DNA from: Anaerolineae bacterium
Lineage (GTDB): Bacteria > Chloroflexota > Anaerolineae > Anaerolineales > Anaerolineaceae
Direction: 5' to 3'
DNA: 35,766 nt
Assembly (NCBI GenBank): GCA_011176685.1
Contig: DUED01000018.1
Span: 1-35,766 of the forward strand
Shown one piece after another: positions 2,602-35,766 of the stretch. The notes below the pieces were generated by a model. It ran no database searches. It saw nothing but the letters and a program-made list of their open reading frames with translations, and was not told the origin of the DNA. Position 1 is the stretch's first letter. Every line of letters begins with the position of its first letter. The position numbers and the translations under genes were made by a program.

Positions 2602-3164
2602 GGGAATTTTTCAGCAAAGTTCTTTAAAAACTGCATACCATATTTATGGCTTTTCTCTGGGTGAAACTGTACACCCAAAATATTATCATTGGTAACAATG
2701 GATGTAAAAGAGATACCATAATTAGTTGTTGCTAAGATATTATTATTGTCATTACATATTAAATGATAGGAATGCACAAAATAAAAACGGTATTGAGATT
2801 TGTATTTGTCAAAAAGGCAATTTTCTCTCTGTAAATTAATATAATTCCATCCCATGTGAGGAATCTTATATTTGCTATCAGATGGATAATTAAAGCGAAT
2901 AACACGGGCATCTAGCCATCCCAGCCCCTTTTCTTGTCCTTCCTCGCTATGTTTTGCAAAAAGCTGCATACCTAAACATATTCCTAGGATAGGAGTCTTA
3001 TTTTTTAGAACACTCTCATTTAGAACAGGCAATAAATCACTTTCTTTTAATTTATTCATAGCGTTATTAAATGAACCTACGCCAGGTAATATAAGCTTTT
3101 TAGCTTGAAGTATCAGATTTTGTTTAGAAGTTATTAAAAATTTAACGCCAATCTTTTTTAGCAT
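2595..3164 (-). CDS. hisH: HisH-like glutamine amidotransferase (WbuY type), start codon unclear
   Basis: Class I glutaminase subunit that should release ammonia from glutamine for the HisF-like/WbuX pair. The catalytic Cys sits in PILGICLGMQLF (Cys63 counted from the ATG at 3164) and the His-Glu pair in GVQFHPEKS; the oxyanion loop PGVG is present. The only usable ATG is internal: conserved N-terminal residues IGIVIIDYHVGNIGSIAN lie upstream in the same frame (3218-3165), but between them and the flippase stop codon (TAA, 3242-3240, in the same frame) there is no ATG, GTG or TTG. Translation may start at ATT (3218 or 3212), or the protein may be shortened by 18 residues. From ATT the length would be about 207 aa, normal for HisH. 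Confidence 0.85.
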   Translation of the reverse strand: MLKKIGVKFLITSKQNLILQAKKLILPGVGSFNNAMNKLKESDLLPVLNESVLKNKTPILGICLGMQLFAKHSEEGQEKGLGWLDARVIRFNYPSDSKYKIPHMGWNYINLQRENCLFDKYKSQYRFYFVHSYHLICNDNNNILATTNYGISFTSIVTNDNILGVQFHPEKSHKYGMQFLKNFAEKFPC

Positions 3165-3239
3165 ATTAGCAATAGAGCCAATATTTCCAACATGGTAATC
3201 AATGATTACAATTCCAATGTTGCTTTTTTGTTGCGTTTC

Positions 3240-4715
3240 TTAAATCTTTCTTATACGAAAATATTTATCAATAATTGTACGAATCTGTTGTCTTAATATT
3301 CTTTTTTCCTCTCCGGTAATTAATGAAAAAGCAGGGATTGAAACAAGGTATATCATAAATAAAACAACAGCAAGGATGATCTGTTGATAATATTCTGATG
3401 GACTTATTAATAAACTGAAAATTATTATTAAAGAAGAGGTCATCAATATTCGTAGGATTCTGTTGAATTCAAATGGAATAGAGTAATCATTATGTGATAC
3501 GGCGATAAAGAAGAGATTAAAACTGAGGTAAGAAATCAACGCCGACAAAGCAGCGCCAACCCCACCCCAAATTGGAATAAAAAGATACAGCATGATTATC
3601 ATAATGAGAGCACTAATTGCAGTAACTATTCCAACAAGACCAGTTCTTTTAGTAAGGAGAGCTCCGATTGAAGTTATTTGTGATGTGCCATCGGCCACAA
3701 TAGCAAACGCAAGGGCAGGGACAATAACATAAGCAGATTCGTAATTGCTAGTTGCAAGGACCTTCAGGGCTGGTCGAGCAAAGAGGGAAAGCAGGACAAC
3801 TAGAATTGATGATAGCAGGAGGTAATAACTAAGCGTAAGGCTGTATACTTTTGGCGCATCTTTATCTTTTGATGTCTCAAAAATGAAGGGCAGATTTGCC
3901 AAGCGAAATGCCTGAGCGAAAAAACCCATAATTGATGCGATGCGAATCCCCGCTGCATATTTCCCCACTTCTTCAAGATTGGAAAGTTTAGTCAGCATAA
4001 TTCGATCTGAGGATGTCATTAACCAAGTGCAAATACCGACAAATGCCATTGGTATCCAATAGATGAACATCTCTCTGAAGCGTGAAAAATCGAATTTGAA
4101 TTCATAGAATTCGAAATTGATGAATATGCCAACAAAAGAGAATATCATTGTGGCTATTGCATTTGACCAAAATACTGAGCTCACCCCAGCTTTTTTACCT
4201 AAAACCAGATATATATTCAGCAGCAGGGTTGTGACCAGAAACGGGATAGAAATGGTTATATAGGAAATGGGTTTCCTCTGTAAACGTGCTAGATTTAAAT
4301 TCAGGTTGTAAATCCCTGTGAATGGTATTGCTAAAGCGGCAATCCTTATGTAATCTGCGAAGCGTGTCTCAGCGAAGATCAGGTTGCTGATAGGTTCTGC
4401 AAATAAATTGATTATCAGAACAATAAGTATATTTATGGTGAAGGTATAAATCCCCAGAACAGAAACAGTTCTTTTCCGCGCTTCTTTTTTGGGGTATTCA
4501 AAAAAGAAATAACTCAAAGCTGCGCCTGTTCCTGAAGTTAGCAGGGTGCTTGCAAGTACAGTAATGATAGTGATGACATCAATTACTCCATATTCAGCCA
4601 CACTGAAAATACGTGAGTATAAAGGAAGGAGTAGGAGGTTGATGAATTTACTGCCAGCTCCACCCAAGCCGTATATCACAGATTCTTTTGTTAATTTTTT
4701 AAATTTTGAAAGCAT
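3240..4715 (-). CDS. oligosaccharide flippase, Wzx-like (MOP superfamily)
   Basis: A 491-aa, very hydrophobic protein with about 12-14 predicted membrane spans. The N-terminus (KLTKESVIYGLGGAGSKFIN) and the pattern LYSRIFSVAEYGVIDVI are typical of Wzx/RfbX polysaccharide transporters, which flip undecaprenyl-linked repeat units across the inner membrane. It is the first gene of the four-gene distal block with the sugar-amidation trio. Its stop codon is directly and in-frame followed by the HisH-like coding sequence. It is the second flippase of the locus (the other at 18886-20226), so the block may be a separately acquired unit. Upstream is the decayed stretch 4716-5261. Confidence 0.88.
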   Translation of the reverse strand: MLSKFKKLTKESVIYGLGGAGSKFINLLLLPLYSRIFSVAEYGVIDVITIITVLASTLLTSGTGAALSYFFFEYPKKEARKRTVSVLGIYTFTINILIVLIINLFAEPISNLIFAETRFADYIRIAALAIPFTGIYNLNLNLARLQRKPISYITISIPFLVTTLLLNIYLVLGKKAGVSSVFWSNAIATMIFSFVGIFINFEFYEFKFDFSRFREMFIYWIPMAFVGICTWLMTSSDRIMLTKLSNLEEVGKYAAGIRIASIMGFFAQAFRLANLPFIFETSKDKDAPKVYSLTLSYYLLLSSILVVLLSLFARPALKVLATSNYESAYVIVPALAFAIVADGTSQITSIGALLTKRTGLVGIVTAISALIMIIMLYLFIPIWGGVGAALSALISYLSFNLFFIAVSHNDYSIPFEFNRILRILMTSSLIIIFSLLISPSEYYQQIILAVVLFMIYLVSIPAFSLITGEEKRILRQQIRTIIDKYFRIRKI

Positions 4716-4744
4716 TTCATTTTTGCAAATTCTTGAGTAAATAA

Positions 4745-4905
4745 CAATTCGGTAATAATTTGTACGTGATTATTTCTAAGTGAAATTGAGGTTTATAGTC
4801 TGACCATGAAAATTTGTCAATACATTTAAACCCTGCTTTTTCCAATTTTAAGTCGAGTTTTTTCTAATCTGTCTGGTAGATAATTACATAATCAGATTCC
4901 TAATA
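4745..4905. repeat. direct repeat R2 (partner at 405-575)
   Basis: Diverged copy of R1. Shared words include GGTAATAATTT, ATGAAAATTTGTCAATA (one change from R1), CATTTAAACCCTGCTTTTTCC and CTGGTAGA. It lies on the 3' side of the wbuX remnant, as R1 does for the intact wbuX, so the two mark a duplicated gene-plus-downstream segment. Confidence 0.55.
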
Positions 4906-5009
4906 CTTTGAATTTTTCTTAACGGATCTAACATCCCTGCCCCTAAAATTAGGATCATCCCAATAATTAGTATAAAAAATCGCCATTCAATTAGGTAGAA
5001 GGAGAACAT
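4884..5009 (-). pseudogene. short hydrophobic ORF, probably the tail of a decayed membrane protein
   Basis: A 41-codon minus-strand frame starting MFSFYLIEWRFF, continuing with a hydrophobic stretch (ILIIGMILILGAGML) and ending DPLRKIQSIRNLIM. No Shine-Dalgarno is seen before its ATG. The same frame extends upstream as coding-looking sequence (RKEYLKIYLMVMEYY) interrupted by a TAG. I read it as the C-terminus of a lost membrane protein of the polysaccharide locus; the family is not recognisable. It could also be chance. Confidence 0.3.
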
Positions 5010-5146
5010 TATTTTAGTTTGCAACCGAAAATGCCAATTCTAATAATACTCCATAACCATCAAATAAATTTTCAAATATTCCTTGCGGGTTATTAAATAC
5101 CCTTTATTCAACTATTAATTACAACCAGATAAGGACTAAAAGAATA

Positions 5147-5242
5147 TCATTTGAGCACACTATTCTCGTCAAAGTCGATATTCGGGTCGCTGGTATTCGT
5201 GGCATATTTAGTATAAATTCGGCAATTTGGTTTGTTGTTCAT
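5147..5242 (-). pseudogene. remnant of a second wbuX 5' end
   Basis: From ATG at 5242 the minus strand reads MNNKPNCRIYTKYATNTSDP, then NIDFDENSVLK and a stop. The 18 residues YTKYATNTSDPNIDFDEN align without gaps with CTRCVMDTTDPNIIFDEN of the intact WbuX (residues 8-25). Both zinc-type cysteines of the first CxxC are Tyr here, which needs only single G-to-A changes. The rest of the gene is absent. With R2 this identifies a decayed duplicate of the wbuX region. Confidence 0.7.
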
Positions 5243-5261
5243 CTCATCATTTATCCTTTGT

Positions 5262-6410
5262 TCAATTTTTACTAATTTCATTTAAGAGCTTTGTGTAAGA
5301 TTCAACAACAGCTTTTATAGTGAAAGATTTGGAGAATTTATAGCTGTTTTTTCGGAATTTTAATAGTCTATGCGGATCAATAAGAAGCTTTCGTAGGGCT
5401 TTGCTGTAACCATCAATATCTCCTGGTTCGACCAAGAAGCCATTTACATTTTCTTTTACTAAATTACTGCACCCACCCACATTGCTCAATACAACAGCAA
5501 GACCTGTTGCCAATGCCTTTAACCCAGTTAATGGCAACCCCTCGGTGAGAGAGGGCATGAATAAGATGTCGCTTTTTTTGAACCATTCAGTAACCTCATC
5601 CTCGCTGATCCACCCTGTGAGCTTAATACGCCTTCCCAAATTGTGCTGGTTAATAATACGTTTTGCATCTTGGAAAAGTAGCCCGTCACCTAACAGGGTA
5701 CAATCCCAGTCAAGGTCTTCAAGTTTTGCAAGAGTATGAATGATTGCAAGAGGATTTTTTTCTGGAGAGAAGCGACCAGCGAAGATGATGTGTGGTTTTT
5801 TATTAGGTTCGAATTTGCCTGGTGTCAGTCGGTCTAAGTCAATCCCATTGCCAATCACATTCATATCCACATCATAATATTGATATGCAAGTTGTTTAGT
5901 CTGATCGCTCACAGCGACTACTTTGACAGCATTTTTCCAAATTCCATAAGTGAAGGGCATAACGAACCGGAACCAGCGGTCAGTTTTCTCTGGCGCGGCT
6001 CCAGGGACATCGCCTCCATGTGCAGTGATGATATAAGGAAGGTGAGTGAATTTTGAGAGCGCCCAGGTAGTTGCGCCCGCTGGAACAGCGAAGTGTGCAT
6101 GTAAAATGTCTGGTTTCCATTCACGGATGAGCTTTATCCCCTTGAAGAAACTGGCAAGCACATAGAAAATCATAGCTGAGAAGTCAGCTCTGTATTGCAC
6201 TTTTCTGTTTGACCACAGGCGGTGAATGATTACACCATCACAGTTTTCAATTGCTGGTGATTCTCCGAAACGAGCAGTGACCACTTGAATTTGGTATCCT
6301 GATTTCACCAAGCCGCGGCATAGGTTCTGAGAAATACGTCCACCCCCACCGCCCACAGGTGGATATTCGTGAATAAAAACCAGTATTTTCTTTATTCTTT
6401 TGCCAGTCAT
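5262..6410 (-). CDS. GT4-family glycosyltransferase
   Basis: A GT-B-fold retaining glycosyltransferase (382 aa) that should add a sugar from a nucleotide donor to a lipid-linked glycan on the cytoplasmic face of the membrane. Seen: the N-terminal Gly-rich donor-side motif HEYPPVGGGGGRISQNL, the central AHFAVPAG and TAHGGDVPG, and the C-terminal FAGRFSPEKNP and SLTEGLPLTGLKALATG. The last motif is the E-x7-E signature, but the second Glu is Lys (AAG), unlike the other canonical GT4 at 11885-13018. Start ATG (6410) overlaps the preceding methyltransferase stop as ATGA. It borders the decayed 4716-5261 stretch, so partial loss of function is possible. Confidence 0.88.
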   Translation of the reverse strand: MTGKRIKKILVFIHEYPPVGGGGGRISQNLCRGLVKSGYQIQVVTARFGESPAIENCDGVIIHRLWSNRKVQYRADFSAMIFYVLASFFKGIKLIREWKPDILHAHFAVPAGATTWALSKFTHLPYIITAHGGDVPGAAPEKTDRWFRFVMPFTYGIWKNAVKVVAVSDQTKQLAYQYYDVDMNVIGNGIDLDRLTPGKFEPNKKPHIIFAGRFSPEKNPLAIIHTLAKLEDLDWDCTLLGDGLLFQDAKRIINQHNLGRRIKLTGWISEDEVTEWFKKSDILFMPSLTEGLPLTGLKALATGLAVVLSNVGGCSNLVKENVNGFLVEPGDIDGYSKALRKLLIDPHRLLKFRKNSYKFSKSFTIKAVVESYTKLLNEISKN

Positions 6411-29095: not shown

Positions 29096-29116
29096 GGGGC
29101 GTCTCTACGAGACTCC
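29096..29116. repeat. short palindromic repeat, copy 1
   Basis: GTCTC-TAC-GAGAC (29101-29113), with flanking G- and C-runs, lies between convergent genes. A related word CCTCTACGAGACTCCCTGCGGTCGC occurs near 30280. It may act as a weak bidirectional terminator or be a member of a dispersed repeat family. Confidence 0.4.
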
Positions 29117-30427: not shown

Positions 30428-30499
30428 GCGGGCGTCGCCAAGTGGTAAGGCATCAGCCTTCCAAGCTGACATTCATGGGTTCGAGTCCCATCGCCCGCT
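30428..30499 (+). tRNA. tRNA-Gly (anticodon UCC)
   Basis: A full cloverleaf of 72 nt: acceptor GCGGGCG/CGCCCGC, D arm GCC/GGC, anticodon stem TCAGC/GCTGA with loop CTTCCAA (anticodon TCC), 5-nt variable loop and T arm ATGGG-TTCGAGT-CCCAT; discriminator T. CCA is not encoded. It has its own promoter and a following T-run. The 3' half is repeated at 33511 and 35513, and almost the whole tRNA at 33393, so it looks like the insertion target of the accessory region to its right. Confidence 0.95.
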
Positions 30500-30636
30500 C
30501 TTTTTTTACTCCCCGTTTTTATTATTATATGTAATAGAATTACATTATCCTTGCCAGCTTTAGGAGCTTAATAACTGAACAACTGGCGTTTAGAGGGCAC
30601 TGCACAAGTACACAAGCAGGTAAAATGAAGAAATTG
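30484..30636. repeat. tRNA-Gly 3' half plus downstream direct repeat, copy A
   Basis: Begins at AGTCCCATCGCCCGCTC of the T-loop and tRNA 3' side, then the T-run, TTATTATTATATGTAATAG, GTTTAGAGGGCACTGCA, AGTACACAAGCAGGTAA and ends at GAAATTG. About 153 bp, lacking a GTC triplet present in copies B and C. It is the copy attached to the functional tRNA. Confidence 0.85.
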
Positions 30637-30648
30637 CCTTGACGCACC

Positions 30649-30768
30649 TGCAATACGGCTATCCACCGCTGGGAAGAATTCCGAAAAACAGACTGGATTA
30701 CTTACCTTGAATATCCTGAGTTTACAATGAGGCAAACACAGGAATTATTAACAATTTTTAAATCTTGA
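30649..30768 (+). pseudogene. possible C-terminal scrap of a transposase
   Basis: A 39-codon open frame without start: CNTAIHRWEEFRKTDWITYL then EYPEFTMRQTQELLTIFKS and stop. RWEExxxxxxWITYLEYPE recalls the C-terminal part of mutator-type (IS256-like) transposases, but the match is short and weak. It directly follows repeat copy A. Confidence 0.25.
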
Positions 30769-30793
30769 ACCTCTGCTTTATTTTTCTAGCAAC

Positions 30794-31855
30794 TTAGAAT
30801 AATGCTCCAAAAACAAGTCCAGCGGTAGTAGTAATTATAGTTATCAAAAGAGCATAAATAACTGTCTTTTTAACCCCTAAAACCTTACTTACTACCAGCA
30901 GGCTTTGTAAAGAAACAATTGGATCTGCTAAGATGTAAGCAAGAAGTGGTCCCTTGTTCATTCCTAAATCTAAAAAGGTTTTGGCAATCGGCACTTCTAC
31001 TAAAGCAGGGAAATAAGCAATCACACCAAATAAAACACCTGCCAGGTTTGCCCAGATTGTATTTTGTCCAGCCAGTCTTTGAAAAGCCTCTTGGGGAATA
31101 ATGGCCTTAAACACGCCTGCTCCGAAAACTCCAACCAAAAGCAGAGGGAAGATCATCCAAAAAAACTTCCAGGTTTCCTTCATCCATGAAATCAATTCTT
31201 TCCTAGAGTAAAACAAAAAAGAAAAGACTACAGTTATTAAGGTGAAAAAACCGATAAAAGGATATTTGATATTACCTGCTATTGGGGCTGTGCCAGCAAT
31301 AAGAATGCCTGCCAAAGAACCAAAGAAAAGAACTGATTGATAAGCTGGTCTTTCTTTGAATTGAGTCTTTCCCTCAAGAGGAACGCTGTTTCTCATTTGC
31401 TCTATCTTTTCTTTTTCACCATCTTTGAATATCCAAGTCATTAAAATACCCACAAGAACAGCAAAAAGGATAGAAAAAATCAGGCGAGCAAAAGCAATAT
31501 CCCAGCCGATTAAAGAAGCGGTATAAGAAACAGCTAAAATATTAATCGCTGGTCCTGCGTACAAAAAAGCCATTGCTGGTCCTAAACCTGCTCCTCTTTT
31601 CCAAATGCCTGCAAACAAAGGCAGAATAGTGCAAGAGCAAACTTCAACCAGAGTGCCAAATAAAGCACCCAAACCATAAGCTTTGACTGGATGAGCTTTT
31701 CTGCCCAAAGTTTTGACAATAATATCTTTGGAAACTAAGGCATTAATTGCTCCTGCTAAAAAGAAAGCAGGCACCAGGCAAAACAAAACATGAGCAGAAA
31801 CATAGTCATAAAGTGCCAGTAAACCAGCATTAAAAAAATTGAAAACAAAGTTCAT
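30794..31855 (-). CDS. permease (UPF0718/ArsP-like)
   Basis: A 353-aa membrane protein with about eight to ten spans. The paired signature EVCSCTILPLFAGIWKRGAG...FLYAGPAINILA with a CxC, and the second half GVIAYFPALVEVPIAKTF...YILADPIVSLQSLLVV, define the UPF0718/ArsP permease family, which includes organoarsenical exporters. It overlaps the thioredoxin-like gene by ATGA. In the ArsR operon context a metalloid or metal-thiol substrate is likely, not proven. Codon use is visibly more AT-rich than in the housekeeping genes. Confidence 0.88.
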   Translation of the reverse strand: MNFVFNFFNAGLLALYDYVSAHVLFCLVPAFFLAGAINALVSKDIIVKTLGRKAHPVKAYGLGALFGTLVEVCSCTILPLFAGIWKRGAGLGPAMAFLYAGPAINILAVSYTASLIGWDIAFARLIFSILFAVLVGILMTWIFKDGEKEKIEQMRNSVPLEGKTQFKERPAYQSVLFFGSLAGILIAGTAPIAGNIKYPFIGFFTLITVVFSFLFYSRKELISWMKETWKFFWMIFPLLLVGVFGAGVFKAIIPQEAFQRLAGQNTIWANLAGVLFGVIAYFPALVEVPIAKTFLDLGMNKGPLLAYILADPIVSLQSLLVVSKVLGVKKTVIYALLITIITTTAGLVFGALF

Positions 31856-32100
31856 TTTTTAATCACCTCTTTGATTTCCTCAACAGAAGCCACCTTGCCT
31901 GAGATACACACCTTGCCGTCGACTGTCAAAGCTGGCGTCATCATCACACCCATTTCAATAATCTTTCCAATGTCATAAATATGGGTAATCTCTGCTTTTA
32001 GCCCCAGTTCTTTTACTGCTTCTCTGGTATTTTCCTCTAGCTTCTGGCAATTAGGGCAACCTGAACCTAAAATTTGAATTTTCATATTTGTTCCCATCAT
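31852..32100 (-). CDS. small thioredoxin-like redox protein (CxxC)
   Basis: An 82-aa protein of the 'redox-active disulfide protein 2' type: MKIQILGSGCPNCQKLEENT with the CPNC active site, and GVMMTPALTVDGKVCISGKV with the cis-Pro. Real start may be MK (codon 6) or the first Met; the first ATG overlaps the arsR stop as ATGA. It is usually found beside ArsP-like permeases and may pass electrons or bind the metal(loid). Confidence 0.9.
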   Translation of the reverse strand: MMGTNMKIQILGSGCPNCQKLEENTREAVKELGLKAEITHIYDIGKIIEMGVMMTPALTVDGKVCISGKVASVEEIKEVIKK

Positions 32101-32399
32101 AAAGAAAAAATACTGTTAGTAACTTTTTTCCCCTTGTTAGTTAAAGAATAAAATACTTTTCTGCCTTGTTTTTGATCTTCTACCAGACCTGCATTTTTTA
32201 GATCTGCCAAGTGGTGAGAAATAAGACTTTGGCTCATATCAAAATGCTCTACTATCTCGCAAACACAATGCCTACCCTGACGTAAAACACAAAGAAGCTT
32301 TAGTCTACTTTCCTCAGCCACAAGTTTTAATAAAGAAGATAATGAGGCAACCTTTATAAACTCTTGTTTATCAGGAGAACAACAATTATATGAACCCAT
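32097..32399 (-). CDS. ArsR/SmtB-family metal-responsive repressor
   Basis: A winged-helix repressor of about 100 aa. ESRLKLLCVLRQGRHCVCEIVEHFDMSQSLISHHLADLKNAGLV contains the metal-site CVC at the alpha-3 helix (ELCVCDL in ArsR) followed by the recognition helix. An additional CC lies at the N-terminus (SYNCCSPDK). I choose ATG 32399 rather than 32405: the promoter's expected initiation base is the A of that ATG, and the palindromic operator covers both. First gene of arsR-trx-permease, likely autoregulated. Confidence 0.9.
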   Translation of the reverse strand: MGSYNCCSPDKQEFIKVASLSSLLKLVAEESRLKLLCVLRQGRHCVCEIVEHFDMSQSLISHHLADLKNAGLVEDQKQGRKVFYSLTNKGKKVTNSIFSL

Positions 32400-32407
32400 G
32401 TTCATAT
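32388..32407. promoter_or_regulatory. ArsR operator (20-bp palindrome)
   Basis: ATATGAAC (32388-32395) and GTTCATAT (32400-32407) are perfect 8-bp arms with a CCAT spacer. The site overlaps the -10 edge, the predicted transcription start and the arsR start codon, so bound repressor would block initiation. Confidence 0.75.
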
Positions 32408-32434
32408 TTTATTACAAGGGGAAGGAATTGTCAA
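32406..32434 (-). promoter_or_regulatory. promoter of the arsR operon
   Basis: TTGACA (32434-32429), 17-bp spacer, TAAAAT (32411-32406). Initiation is expected at about 32399, on the arsR ATG. A consensus-like sigma70 promoter, the best in the window. Confidence 0.8.
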
Positions 32435-32468
32435 TAAAGCAAGAGGGAAGGATTGTTAATAACCAGCG

Positions 32469-32633
32469 TCATTTGGCAGGACAGGCGTATTCAGGCATTG
32501 AAGCAGCAGGATTACCGTGTTTCACCCATTGACCATCTTTACAAATCCAAGAATCCTCGCTGCCACCAATAACAAACCTAATAAATAACCATGCAACCAA
32601 AATAATCAGCAAGAAAATCAAAACTTTTTTCAT
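32469..32633 (-). CDS. small secreted or membrane-anchored protein (54 aa)
   Basis: Not in a recognised family. The frame starts MKKVLIFLLIILVAWLFIRF (Lys-Lys then a 20-residue hydrophobic segment, a signal anchor), followed by GGSEDSWICKDGQWVKHGNP and ASMPEYACPAK. Two Cys flank the exported part and could form a disulfide. I recall similar 'SEDTWIC..GQWVKHGNPS' mini-proteins in Patescibacteria genomes, which would need a search. It starts 12 bp after the VIT1-like gene stop, so probably the same transcript. Confidence 0.7.
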   Translation of the reverse strand: MKKVLIFLLIILVAWLFIRFVIGGSEDSWICKDGQWVKHGNPAASMPEYACPAK

Positions 32634-32645
32634 AATCTAATAAAT

Positions 32646-33125
32646 TCAGTGATTAAAAATAACTGATATCCAATCACCTAAAAAATGCGTAATTAAAATA
32701 ACTGCCAAACCAATAACTAAATGCTCTGTTATCATCTTCCATGGAATTTCTTTTTGTTGTTTGGCAATAATAAAACTAAAAACAGACAAAGTAGATAGTC
32801 CCCAGATAACACTTATTATAATCGCTTGAGAAAGTTCAAAAACTAAGACAGGAGAAATAAAAGTTAAGGAAAAAACTAATTTAGAGAAAAAGGTGGCTAG
32901 TGTTGCTTCCCATATCTCTTTGACTGAGTTTTTATTTTGGGACTCTTGAGAAATATGAATACCCAAGGCGTCAGAGAAAGCATCAGCAATAGCAATAGTT
33001 AAAATGCCACCTATAACAACTAATTTTGAATGGGTTCCTGCATGAAGACCAACCATTAACCCAAGAGTGGTAATCACCCCAGAAGTTAAACCAAAACTCA
33101 AACCTGTTTTAAACGAATATCTCAT
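32646..33125 (-). CDS. VIT1/CCC1-like small membrane protein
   Basis: A 159-aa protein with about five spans. FGLTSGVITTLGLMVGLHAGTHSK and IAIADAFSDALGIHISQES recall the membrane part of VIT1/CCC1 iron/manganese transporters, in which Gly-rich TM1 and the ADAxSxxxG helix are conserved. Shorter than plant/yeast VIT1 and with no visible metal-binding domain. AT-rich like the arsR block; it may contribute to metal handling. Start ATG follows TAGGAA. Confidence 0.7.
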   Translation of the reverse strand: MRYSFKTGLSFGLTSGVITTLGLMVGLHAGTHSKLVVIGGILTIAIADAFSDALGIHISQESQNKNSVKEIWEATLATFFSKLVFSLTFISPVLVFELSQAIIISVIWGLSTLSVFSFIIAKQQKEIPWKMITEHLVIGLAVILITHFLGDWISVIFNH

Positions 33126-33189
33126 TTCCTACATTTTACATCAAGTAAGAGGATTTAAAAAAGTTCGGTAATCATCTCATCTAGGGTAG

Positions 33190-33392
33190 CGCCTAGGACT
33201 TCGGCAGGCAGGATATGAACTCAAGAGAGAGCATGACCAGGTGATCAACCATAAGGTATTGCAGAAACCGGGAATTCAGCCGTTTGAGGTGCTGTATAAG
33301 GACTTTACTGAGATTCGATATTGCAGAGGGCTAAATAAAGCGTATCTGATGCCCATTCTGGAACATGGGACCCGGAGTGTGTTAGGCTGTAC
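33190..33392 (+). pseudogene. truncated IS3-family-like transposase (ORFB)
   Basis: An open frame after a TAG (33187-33189): LRQAGYELKREHDQVINHKV then LQKPGIQPFEVLYKDFTEIR, YCRGLNKAYLMPILEHGTRS and VLGC. YKDFTEIRY holds the first catalytic Asp of the DDE domain, and the following stretch fits the rve-core pattern. It stops exactly where the pseudo-tRNA begins (33393), and the ORF only continues through the tRNA by chance. N- and C-terminal parts are missing. Confidence 0.65.
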
Positions 33393-33527
33393 GCGGGCGT
33401 CGCCAAGTGGTAAGGCATCAGCCTTCCAAGCTGACATTCATGGGTTGGCATTTACAATACTCCTTGCAGTCGCCCTTACAGGGTACACACTCAGGGGGCG
33501 CAGGCAGGTAAGTCCCATCGCCCGCTC
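33393..33527 (+). pseudogene. pseudo-tRNA-Gly, split by 64 bp in the T-loop
   Basis: 33393-33446 repeats the tRNA-Gly(UCC) exactly from its 5' end through the first two T-loop bases, and 33511-33527 resumes at AGTCCCATCGCCCGCTC. Between them 33447-33510 is foreign (GGCATTTACAATACTCCTTG...GGGGGCGCAGGCAGGTA) and replaces the CG of the loop. No promoter precedes it; it cannot give a normal tRNA. Confidence 0.85.
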
Positions 33528-33673
33528 TTTTTTTACTCCCCGTTTTTATTATTATATGTAATAGAATTACGTCATTATCCTTGCCAGCTTTTGGAGCTTA
33601 ATAACTGCAAAGCTGGCGTTTAGAGGGCAATGCGCAAGTACACAAGCAGGTAAGATGAGGAAATTGTGGGTTG
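33511..33673. repeat. tRNA-Gly 3' half plus downstream direct repeat, copy B
   Basis: Starts at AGTCCCATCGCCCGCTC, shares the T-run, TTATTATTATATGTAATAG, ACGTCATTATCC, GTTTAGAGGGCA, AGTACACAAGCAGGTAAGATGAGGAAATTG and GGGTTG. About 156-163 bp. Copies B and C share sequence to both sides of A's limits: TACACACT.AGGGGGCG.AGGCAGG on the left and GGGTTG on the right. Confidence 0.85.
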
Positions 33674-33836
33674 CCTCCAATACCGCATAGGTCTCTCGCG
33701 GTACTTTCTCTTTCAGATATTCTTTCACCTTTTGATTAGATATGCGCTGTTTATCAACCAATTCCCCTTAGCTATCCATCAGCACCATAAAGGTGCGCTT
33801 GAGATGCAGGTCTATTCCAAGGTAAAATGGGTACAT
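33665..33836 (-). pseudogene. 5' fragment of an IS110-family transposase
   Basis: ATG at 33836 after AAGGAGG (33850-33844) reads MYPFYLGIDLHLKRTFMVLM, then DS, an in-frame TAA, then GELVDKQRISNQKVKEYLKE and KVPRETYAVLEATHN. GIDLHxKxT is the first Asp motif of the DEDD transposase of IS110 elements, and the EATHN segment is also typical. The gene is broken both by the stop codon and by the join with repeat copy B at about 33666. Confidence 0.7.
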
Positions 33837-33985
33837 AAGCGTTCCTCCTTTTCTGAACTTGTTTGTCTCTTACCTCAAGTTTAGCAAACTGGCAGGGACG
33901 CTTTCATAGTATAAACCGGGTTGCACCCAAAACAGGAAAGGCGGCTCACAATAGTTTTGTGAAAAACCTCCTTAATCCCGGTACA
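33837..33985 (-). other. noncoding 5' region of the IS110-like fragment
   Basis: The 150 bp before the transposase start carries no ORF. In IS110-family elements this left-end region is known to encode the bridge RNA that pairs target and donor; a structured transcript here is possible but cannot be confirmed from sequence alone. Confidence 0.35.
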
Positions 33986-33992
33986 GTACTGT

Positions 33993-34523
33993 TTAACGGT
34001 CACCTAATGGCAGTTTGGTAGCCCTGTTTGCAGCTAAAGCTTCTCTAATAAGTTGTAAAACATCATCCGATCGGCGTGTCGAAAAGGAAATATCCCGCAC
34101 AAGCCCCTTTTTTCTCTTAAGCGCGATCACAACCCTGGGATGCTCCAGGAAATTGAACGAGGCACGATATCTTTTGCGAATGCTCATAAAGTGTATCCCT
34201 GCTCCACCCATCCTCATCACCATAGGGATCTCATCAAGAGAACATTCTTCAATATTATCCAAAGGTACTATCCAGGTGAATATGCCAAATGTGAGCTTCA
34301 GAGACTCTGAGGTGATGCTGATAATGAGTGTTCTGAAGTTCACCGAATAGAATAAAAATAAACTGAAAAGACAGAAGAAAACATCAGCAAGAACGTCTAA
34401 ACTGCCAGCAATCACGCGCCAGATGAGTAGTAAGAGGAAGAGGATTGTGAGCGCCAAGAAGAGCACCTCCGTCCGGTTTGAAGTAACCCTCTCGTTGTAT
34501 TTAAGATCGTCAGCATTGACCAT
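33993..34523 (-). CDS. PH-like-domain membrane protein
   Basis: A 176-aa protein with two hydrophobic segments (about residues 22-62) followed by a beta-rich domain with LISITSESLKLTFGIFTWIVPLDNIEECSL, typical of bacterial PH-like (bPH) domains. Conserved-looking end EHPRVVIALKRKKGLVRDISFSTRRSDDVLQLIREAL. Function unknown. It lies 38 bp after the isoprenylcysteine-methyltransferase-like gene, and the two form the cargo between repeat copies B and C. Confidence 0.65.
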   Translation of the reverse strand: MVNADDLKYNERVTSNRTEVLFLALTILFLLLLIWRVIAGSLDVLADVFFCLFSLFLFYSVNFRTLIISITSESLKLTFGIFTWIVPLDNIEECSLDEIPMVMRMGGAGIHFMSIRKRYRASFNFLEHPRVVIALKRKKGLVRDISFSTRRSDDVLQLIREALAANRATKLPLGDR

Positions 34524-34561
34524 GCTTTATTTCATAAGCGTTCTGCTCATACCTAAGACAA

Positions 34562-35260
34562 TCACCATATTCCTGGTAACAAACGATAACAAACTCGCTT
34601 TACATAATCACAGTAGCCTTCTAATTCATCCTGCAAAAACCTATCTTCTAGATTGGTGCGAATTAACATTAGAATTGCGATAAATACTGTTGGCAAGAAT
34701 GCCCATCCTGAATTTAGAAAGAGAGGTGTTGCCAGATATGTCAAGAGCGCCCCTGCGTAACCAGGATGCCGCATCCAGCGGTAGGGACCACTCGAGACAA
34801 CCTGGTGACCGCGATCGGTCTGGAGGCGTACCATACCAGAAAAGAATCGGTTTTCGATCAAGGCATAGGATCCCAAGGCGTATCCAGCCAGGATGATAAG
34901 CAGCGAAAGAATTTTCAGCGGCAAGCTGAACATAGGGGACCAGCCAAACAGCGCATCCAGCCCGGCTACAAGCATTACCAAACCACCACCAAGCCCGAGA
35001 AAAGGGGCTAAAAGTTTATCCCAGGGTTTGGCGTTCGCATGTTGCATGAAGCGTGCGCGTTCAGTAATCAGGTCTGGATGACGCCGCGCGGCCAACATCC
35101 GGCTGATGGCGAACCCCAAGATGGAAATTATGGCATATACCCAAGCTTCCCACCAGTTCCAGCGCCGGGAGATCAATAAAGGTAGGAATGGTATTACAAC
35201 AATAAAAAACAACATTTGGACAATAACACCTGGGGAGATTAGCCTTTGTTGATTGTTCAT
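34562..35260 (-). CDS. isoprenylcysteine carboxyl-methyltransferase family protein
   Basis: A 232-aa membrane protein with about five spans. The C-terminal SAM-binding part has GPYRWMRHPGYAGALLTYLATPL and DELEGYCDYVKRVCYRLLPGIW, the ICMT/PEMT signature. Bacterial members methylate lipids or other small molecules; they rarely have prenylated targets. Start ATG after TGAGGTG. First gene of the two-gene cargo unit 2. Confidence 0.88.
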   Translation of the reverse strand: MNNQQRLISPGVIVQMLFFIVVIPFLPLLISRRWNWWEAWVYAIISILGFAISRMLAARRHPDLITERARFMQHANAKPWDKLLAPFLGLGGGLVMLVAGLDALFGWSPMFSLPLKILSLLIILAGYALGSYALIENRFFSGMVRLQTDRGHQVVSSGPYRWMRHPGYAGALLTYLATPLFLNSGWAFLPTVFIAILMLIRTNLEDRFLQDELEGYCDYVKRVCYRLLPGIW

Positions 35261-35512
35261 TTTTCACCTCAGTTACCGTCAGCTTCACCAAGTAGGCAGC
35301 TTTTCCAATCCCTAAATGCAGAATATTTTCTCTCCAGCAACTCAACCCATCACGACTCAAATTATAAATCAGAAAAATAAGAAATAGCGCGGTACTCGTG
35401 GAATCCCTGACCGCGCGGTTATTACTGCGATTTGATAATACTAAAATAATAATATCAAGAATCAAACATCAGACCTGCGGTGTTATACACACTAAGGGGG
35501 CGTAGGCAGGCA
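35261..35512. other. intergenic region upstream of cargo unit 2, with inverted repeat
   Basis: No convincing gene. GCGCGGT (35387-35393) and ACCGCGC (35410-35416) are perfect 7-bp arms with a 16-bp spacer, possibly an operator. At 35484-35512 the sequence TACACACTAAGGGGGCGTAGGCAGGCA matches that left of copy B. Confidence 0.4.
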
Positions 35513-35676
35513 AGTCCCATCGCCCGCTCTTTTTTTTACTCCCCGTTTTAATTATTATATGTAATAGAATTACGTCATTATCCTTAGCAGATTTAGGAGC
35601 TTTAAAGCTGAAAATTTAGTGTTTAGAGGGCACTGCACAAGTACACAAGCAGGTAAGATGAGGAAATTGCGGGTTG
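35513..35676. repeat. tRNA-Gly 3' half plus downstream direct repeat, copy C
   Basis: Starts at AGTCCCATCGCCCGCTC and runs through the same 157-bp sequence to GGAAATTG, then GGGTTG as in B. No tRNA 5' half is present. The repeat differs from B in scattered positions (for example TTAGCAGATTT). Confidence 0.85.
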
Positions 35677-35766
35677 ATAAAAAGAGATTGGGAACTATTG
35701 CTCATTACATTGGAGTCATTGGCGAATACTGCATAGTCATCTTCTTGTCGGTATGGCTAAATCATG
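35677..35766. other. window end, no gene recognised
   Basis: Short open frames only (for example EIGNYCSLHWSHWRILHSHL). It may be the beginning of another transposase or a third cargo, but nothing can be supported. Confidence 0.2.

Follow-up and report, generated by a model that had tools for sequence, protein, structure and literature searches.

The sequence at 33393-33527 is a dead extra copy of tRNA-Gly and the longest unit of a degenerate array of tRNA tail repeats. It lies in a window, the whole 35,766-nt stretch analysed here, that makes up the complete contig C10; the genome (G000) has 66 contigs totalling 2.08 Mb. Downstream of many tRNA genes in relatives, the gene's 3' end is repeated in tandem in units of 61-93 nt, and where T-stem meets T-loop the units hold an inserted hairpin (TCCCCnnnGGGGATGnTA followed by TTCGA). 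As the leading explanation, such units would be attR-like junctions made by a T-loop-cutting recombinase and amplified in tandem, with the window copy as a divergent member; we hold this tentatively, at a little under an even chance.

Anatomy of the interrupted tRNA-Gly copy

ARAGORN and Rfam find a single intact tRNA-Gly(TCC) in the window, which heads the array (Table 1). The second copy begins at exactly position 1 of the tRNA, and its 54-nt 5' part is identical to the intact gene. It is then interrupted by 64 nt (33447-33510) and resumes at AGTCCC...CTC, the identical final 17 nt of the tRNA. Alignment of both copies thus bears out the preliminary description, which had reported the 54-nt identity, the 64 foreign bases, the resumption at AGTCCC and a break inside the T-loop. 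Judged from the sequence, a perfect 54-nt repeat between the two copies excludes chance.

The broken copy measures 135 nt and the intact gene 73 nt, a net gain of 62 rather than 64 nt, because the T-loop bases CG are absent from the broken copy. With these bases lost, removing the 64 nt cannot rebuild an intact tRNA-Gly, and the excision junction TTCGAGT, suggested earlier as a test, cannot be regenerated by any excision. Neither ARAGORN nor Rfam detects at 33393-33527 the complete cloverleaf of a functional tRNA; the Rfam tRNA model gives 25.7 bits, under the 29-bit cutoff, and covers the D and anticodon arms only. A functional tRNA with a T-loop intron was considered and rejected, since in the other copies the 5' half is missing or reduced to a decayed remnant. 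To our knowledge, there is no bacterial precedent for a functional tRNA carrying a T-loop intron.

Table 1. Features of the tRNA-Gly array and its cargo in the window
Feature	Position	Strand	Basis
Intact tRNA-Gly(TCC), array head	30428..30500	+	ARAGORN, Rfam
Downstream flank P', copy 0, ending in GTACACAAGCAGGTAAAATGAAGAAATTG	30501..30643	+	alignment
Cargo block A: ArsP-type permease, thioredoxin, ArsR regulator, VIT1-like protein; 37% GC	30794..33125	-	
Transposase-like fragment (rve), end abuts tRNA position 1 exactly	33241..33392	+	Pfam E=0.15, weak
tRNA-Gly nt 1-54, 100% identity with intact gene	33393..33446	+	alignment
One unit of genome-wide 24-bp intergenic repeat (CATTTACAATACTCCTTGCAGTCG)	33449..33472	+	repeat matching
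Partial repeat unit CCCTTACAGG	33473..33482	+	repeat matching
28-nt P segment GTACACACTCAGGGGGCGCAGGCAGGTA, common to 35486, C29, C55	33483..33510	+	sequence comparison
tRNA-Gly 3' end, copy 1	33511..33527	+	alignment with intact gene
Flank P', copy 1	33528..33673	+	
Repeat remnant with IS110-like transposase N-terminus	33670..33912	-	by eye
Cargo block B: ORF of unknown function, ICMT/PEMT-type methyltransferase	33993..35260	-	
P segment, copy 2	35486..35512	+	
tRNA-Gly 3' end, copy 2	35513..35529	+	
Flank P', copy 2	35530..35676	+	

Composition and recurrence of the 64-nt insert

From left to right, the insert consists of GG, a 24-nt repeat unit, CCCTTACAGG and the 28-nt P segment, or 1.4 units of a 24-bp intergenic repeat plus 28 nt. 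The first 36 nt of the insert are a strong match to the repeat unit, equalled by none of 1000 shuffles. The 15-nt core of this repeat has 54 matches genome-wide at up to one mismatch and none in a reversed control; inspected in context, the matches are mostly intergenic and often in 24-nt tandem. In the window the repeat (CCCTTACAGGACTCCCTTCGGTCG / CTCTACGAGACTTCCTGCGGTCGC) lies at 29112, 30290 and 33459, and tandem arrays with a 24-nt period occur elsewhere, for example at C52:1304-1462. Together with the next G, CCCTTACAGG forms a CCC..GGG hairpin that is present on contig C55 too.

The 28-nt P segment always directly precedes a tRNA-Gly 3' end: in the 33511 copy, at 35486, on contig C29 (reverse complement, 279) and on C55 (305). 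Upstream of P, C55 reads ...ATTCATGGGTTTGCCCTTACAGGGC, a decayed tRNA T-stem with the same hairpin and 24 nt fewer than the window copy. This common junction and the recurrence of P make the interruption of tRNA-Gly an old event common to several copies rather than a unique one. P and P' are absent from the viral contigs, species genomes, plasmids, phages and 147 family genomes searched. A derivation of P from the tRNA 5' part was rejected, its alignment being no better than shuffles (177-189 of 1000), as was an inverted copy of the 24-bp repeat, weakly supported at most (1-7% of shuffles).

These observations bear directly on the idea that a single element entered the T-loop of a second tRNA-Gly gene and was then almost wholly deleted. 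The complete 54-nt 5' part, the exact T-loop break and the cargo blocks on either side favor such a history, which is nevertheless highly unlikely: it is already weakened by the junction found on C55 minus 24 nt, P occurs at three more places, and the 5' half is absent elsewhere. Relatives, moreover, show the same arrangement of tRNA 3' copy and hairpin as small tandem repeats without an element, which argues against a one-off insertion. The insertion proposed in the preliminary description therefore survives in the integration-type look of the junction and in the 2-3 kb of cargo between tRNA 3' ends, and fails as a one-off event. Its variant of a left end joined to a right end finds no support, as the first 36 nt are the genome-wide repeat and the last 28 nt stand before three other tRNA-Gly 3' copies. 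The 24-bp repeat part of the segment does sit stably at unrelated loci without element ends, which tells against the earlier proposal for that part.

The tail array and its cargo

The tRNA-Gly 3' end recurs with about 140 nt of its downstream flank (P') at 30484, 33511, 35513 and on C29; the preliminary description had omitted the 3' end and flank at 30484, 35513 and C29. The units of the array are set apart by 3.0 kb and 2.0 kb of cargo, and the GC content of block A is 37%, against 43% in 1-30427. The IS110-like remnant has up to eight further genomic sites; its identity was read from the translation, and Pfam gave no confirmation. The contig ends 90 nt past P' copy 2, in sequence common with C29 (95% over 351 nt).

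Copies 0 and 1 of P' are identical at 128 of 140 nt, and the right arm P' pairs 30484 with 33511 and 35513 with C29. A different, incongruent grouping is given by the left arm P, which 33511, 35513, C29 and C55 have in common. Exchange would therefore have happened within the tRNA 3' segment, and this incongruence between P and P' around a shared core counts for recombination. C55 was also considered as the right-hand chromosomal boundary of the array and rejected, since what lies downstream on it matches nothing expected. The YigZ-type neighbor gene in relative G011 has no match in G000, so the empty site is not reconstructable.

Several further features were observed in these contigs. C29 (L027) carries two tRNA-Met 3' relics, at 500-575 and 3200-3290, each starting at the anticodon and each with a 24-bp unit after GGTCG; HNH and SIR2-like genes, named by eye from translations, lie between them. 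On C55 (L028), a Rep-like gene, an HTH gene and a tyrosine recombinase beside tRNA-Met(CAT) form an integrated element (2950-5322), and the two contig ends have 162 nt in common in inverted orientation. The minus strand of the window at 690-22528 holds a surface-polysaccharide cluster with flippases, a glycosyltransferase, an asparagine synthase and a UDP-glucose/GDP-mannose dehydrogenase.

Hairpin-bearing tail repeats in relatives

Tail arrays follow tRNA-Val, Lys, Arg, Gly, Glu, Ser and Met and, with looser inserts, also Cys and His. For example, genome G029 has four 71-nt units after tRNA-Gly and three 93-nt units after tRNA-Met, with the hairpin near the T-arm in each. A spacing search was positive in 13 of the 118 family genomes, 12 of which hold clear tRNA-Gly tail arrays and one (G081) a doubtful case; across the order's other 282 genomes it gave 12 matches that look like chance. 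Matches were judged by reading the matched sequence, the reversed control being uninformative as TCGCCCGCT is the same read backwards. A motif independent of tRNA type, GTCCCCN3-7GGGGATnnnATYCGA, occurs in 58 of 400 genomes of the order and in none with the reversed control: 19 of 118 in this family (G084 probably by chance), 38 in one other family and 1 elsewhere. These prevalence counts refer to exact patterns and miss divergent inserts like that of the window copy.

The CCCC/GGGG stem, the ATGnTA tail and the TTCGA T-loop are near invariant and the hairpin loop is variable, a pattern partly fixed by the search; conservation covers the sequence of stem and tail, beyond pairing alone. Across about 490 kb around loci picked by the motif, with unselected flanks, the hairpin with its tail lies away from the T-loop once only, in the same kind of tRNA copy. 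Many canonical units retain terminator-like hairpins, and the T-stem 5' strand drifts among units. Most canonical units lie within 260 nt of the tRNA without cargo, separated by spacers of native flank. Copies bearing two inserts occur in G387 and G159. Additionally, in G387 a tRNA-Val with a unit and a tRNA-Val 3' fragment with a unit flank 3.5 kb, and the IMG/VR contig IMGVR_UViG_3300005259_000061 (L207), which has phage capsid and lysozyme genes, starts with two T-loop hairpin units (28-139).

Like these units, the window copy is a same-strand, downstream repeat of the 3' end of the local tRNA, and its insert at the T-stem/T-loop border holds a CCC..GGG hairpin, GGGTT..CCCTTACAGGG (GGGTTTGCCCTTACAGGGC on C55), preceded by a 24-bp repeat unit. 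It departs from them in its tail, which reads GTACACAC...GGTA and then AGTCCC in place of GGGGATGnTA and an intact TTCGA, and in its spacing of kilobases with cargo in place of a 61-93 nt period. The canonical motif has no match in G000. The genome's tRNA-His locus (C1, L053 1163-1465) does carry a near-canonical unit in a tail copy, GCGGGC-ACCCACGAGGGGTATGTTA-TTCGACCCCCGTCAGCCACCC, with a near form of the canonical tail, ACCCACGAGGGGTATGTTATTCGA, and GGGTTTG-hairpin forms resembling the window copy occur in G155, G140 and G088. We infer that the window copy is a divergent, cargo-bearing member of the T-loop hairpin class.

Two other loci deserve mention. A TGGACACAATGGACACAATGG stretch upstream in the tRNA-His locus also precedes a tRNA-Met relic on C29. 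In G049:C72 (L014 / L084), the anticodon of a GGGCCC-type tRNA is seemingly interrupted by about 640 nt that include an HNH-like ORF and may be a group I intron; next to this tRNA lies a tyrosine recombinase sharing 43% identity with the C55 enzyme.

Origin of the tail repeats

In every canonical unit, identity with the tRNA starts at TTCGA, beside the conserved arm, which gives the units the attR-like look expected of a T-loop-cutting recombinase. Each unit joins the 3' part of the local tRNA and its flank to a hairpin-bearing insert placed where T-stem and T-loop meet. In this reading, the invariant T-loop TTCGAnT would serve as the recombination overlap, the conserved hairpin and tail as the adjoining element arm, and the duplicated tRNA 3' end as the displaced target fragment. 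Cargo would usually be lost and the short remainder amplified via unequal crossing over. In G000, cargo may have stayed or re-entered between the units, and the 24-bp repeat may have expanded within the insert. What the sequences demonstrate is how the units are built, that they recur at many tRNAs and that they sit at the T-loop; the recombinase and the succession of events are inferred.

The contig with phage genes and the 3.5-kb case of G387 fit a recombinase origin, and G387 and the window, as cases with cargo between units, count in its favor. Against it stand the mostly cargo-free canonical units close to the tRNA, the lack of an ATGnTA tail or intact TTCGA in the window insert, and the absence of P and P' from every other genome, virus, phage and plasmid searched. 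No homologue of G000's four tyrosine recombinases lies beside the arrays in the 517 kb searched, where close relatives only were detectable. The native-flank spacers also count against it, as simple tandem duplication would produce them.

Tandem duplication of the tRNA 3' region with insertion of small hairpins, and no site-specific recombination, is a somewhat unlikely but substantial alternative. Slippage from the variable loop to the flank would create the copies, and a dead copy would tolerate insertion of REP-type hairpins or the 24-bp repeat, possibly dispersed by a single-strand transposase, and the window copy would be a full-length duplicate struck in its T-loop. Unit lengths equal to the duplication plus about 19 nt (Arg: 51+19=70), the copies with two inserts, the 24-bp repeat being both interspersed and tandem in G000, and the tRNA-Met relics with a 24-bp unit after GGTCG all agree with this account. 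A shared hairpin and tail at one fixed T-loop border, as seen across many isotypes in two families, would however not be expected from random insertion.

Relation to known systems

Islander recognizes genomic islands by a restored tRNA and a displaced fragment (PMC4383910). The window matches this arrangement, with an intact tRNA upstream at 30428, same-strand 3' fragments downstream at 33511 and 35513, a T-loop break, and more than 2 kb of foreign-looking cargo between. Unlike such islands, it has no tyrosine integrase in 30500-35766 (the genome's matches lie on C12, C37, C38 and C55); tail units in general come without an integrase, their conserved hairpin abuts the tRNA fragment, and most are tandem and only 61-93 nt, far under the 2-kb island limit. 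Cis-mobilizable elements and accretion arrays hold several integrase-less cargo blocks between repeated att sites. The window likewise has several such blocks between att-like sites, yet neither a helper element nor an integrase carrying these arms turned up. It is quite improbable, although conceivable, that the units, at 61-93 bp, act as minimal mobile cassettes, each supplying a site for T-loop recombination and a 3' end to replace that of the tRNA, often together with a terminator.

REP/BIME sequences are short palindromic intergenic repeats with GC-rich hairpins and many copies. The 24-bp repeat of G000 is of that sort, whereas the canonical hairpin is seen in tRNA copies only, nearly always at the T-loop.

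In E. coli tyrT, 178-bp repeats lie downstream of the tRNA, each with a piece of the tRNA 3' end. The tail units are likewise tandem, downstream and furnished with a tRNA 3' piece, but they are shorter, carry a conserved T-loop hairpin and involve many isotypes. RtT RNA, which an E. coli tRNA operon yields (PMC4986893), is a precedent for tail repeats kept for a function, as RtT-like RNAs from tRNA transcripts or as decoy T-loops that spare the essential tRNA from integration. Conservation of stem and tail sequence beyond pairing and the terminator-like hairpins kept in many units agree with this improbable alternative; the drift of the T-stem 5' strand and the presence of units in only part of the genomes speak against it, as do the Rfam covariance models, none of which, RtT included, matches the tail units; the window copy likewise has no RtT match.

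Implications

The 3' ends of tRNA genes are the main docking sites of bacterial mobile DNA. A sequence-defined T-loop hairpin recurs here in tRNA tail copies of at least nine amino-acid types and in two families, and it exposes either an unknown integration system or an unknown copying route for tRNA ends. A literature search on tRNA tail repeats with hairpins returned nothing relevant, and this recurrent process at bacterial tRNA gene ends is apparently undescribed so far. If the units are cassettes, they would enter and leave arrays behind any tRNA via a T-loop-specific recombinase, forming tRNA-anchored, integron-like arrays that are mostly empty and able to carry genes, as in the window.
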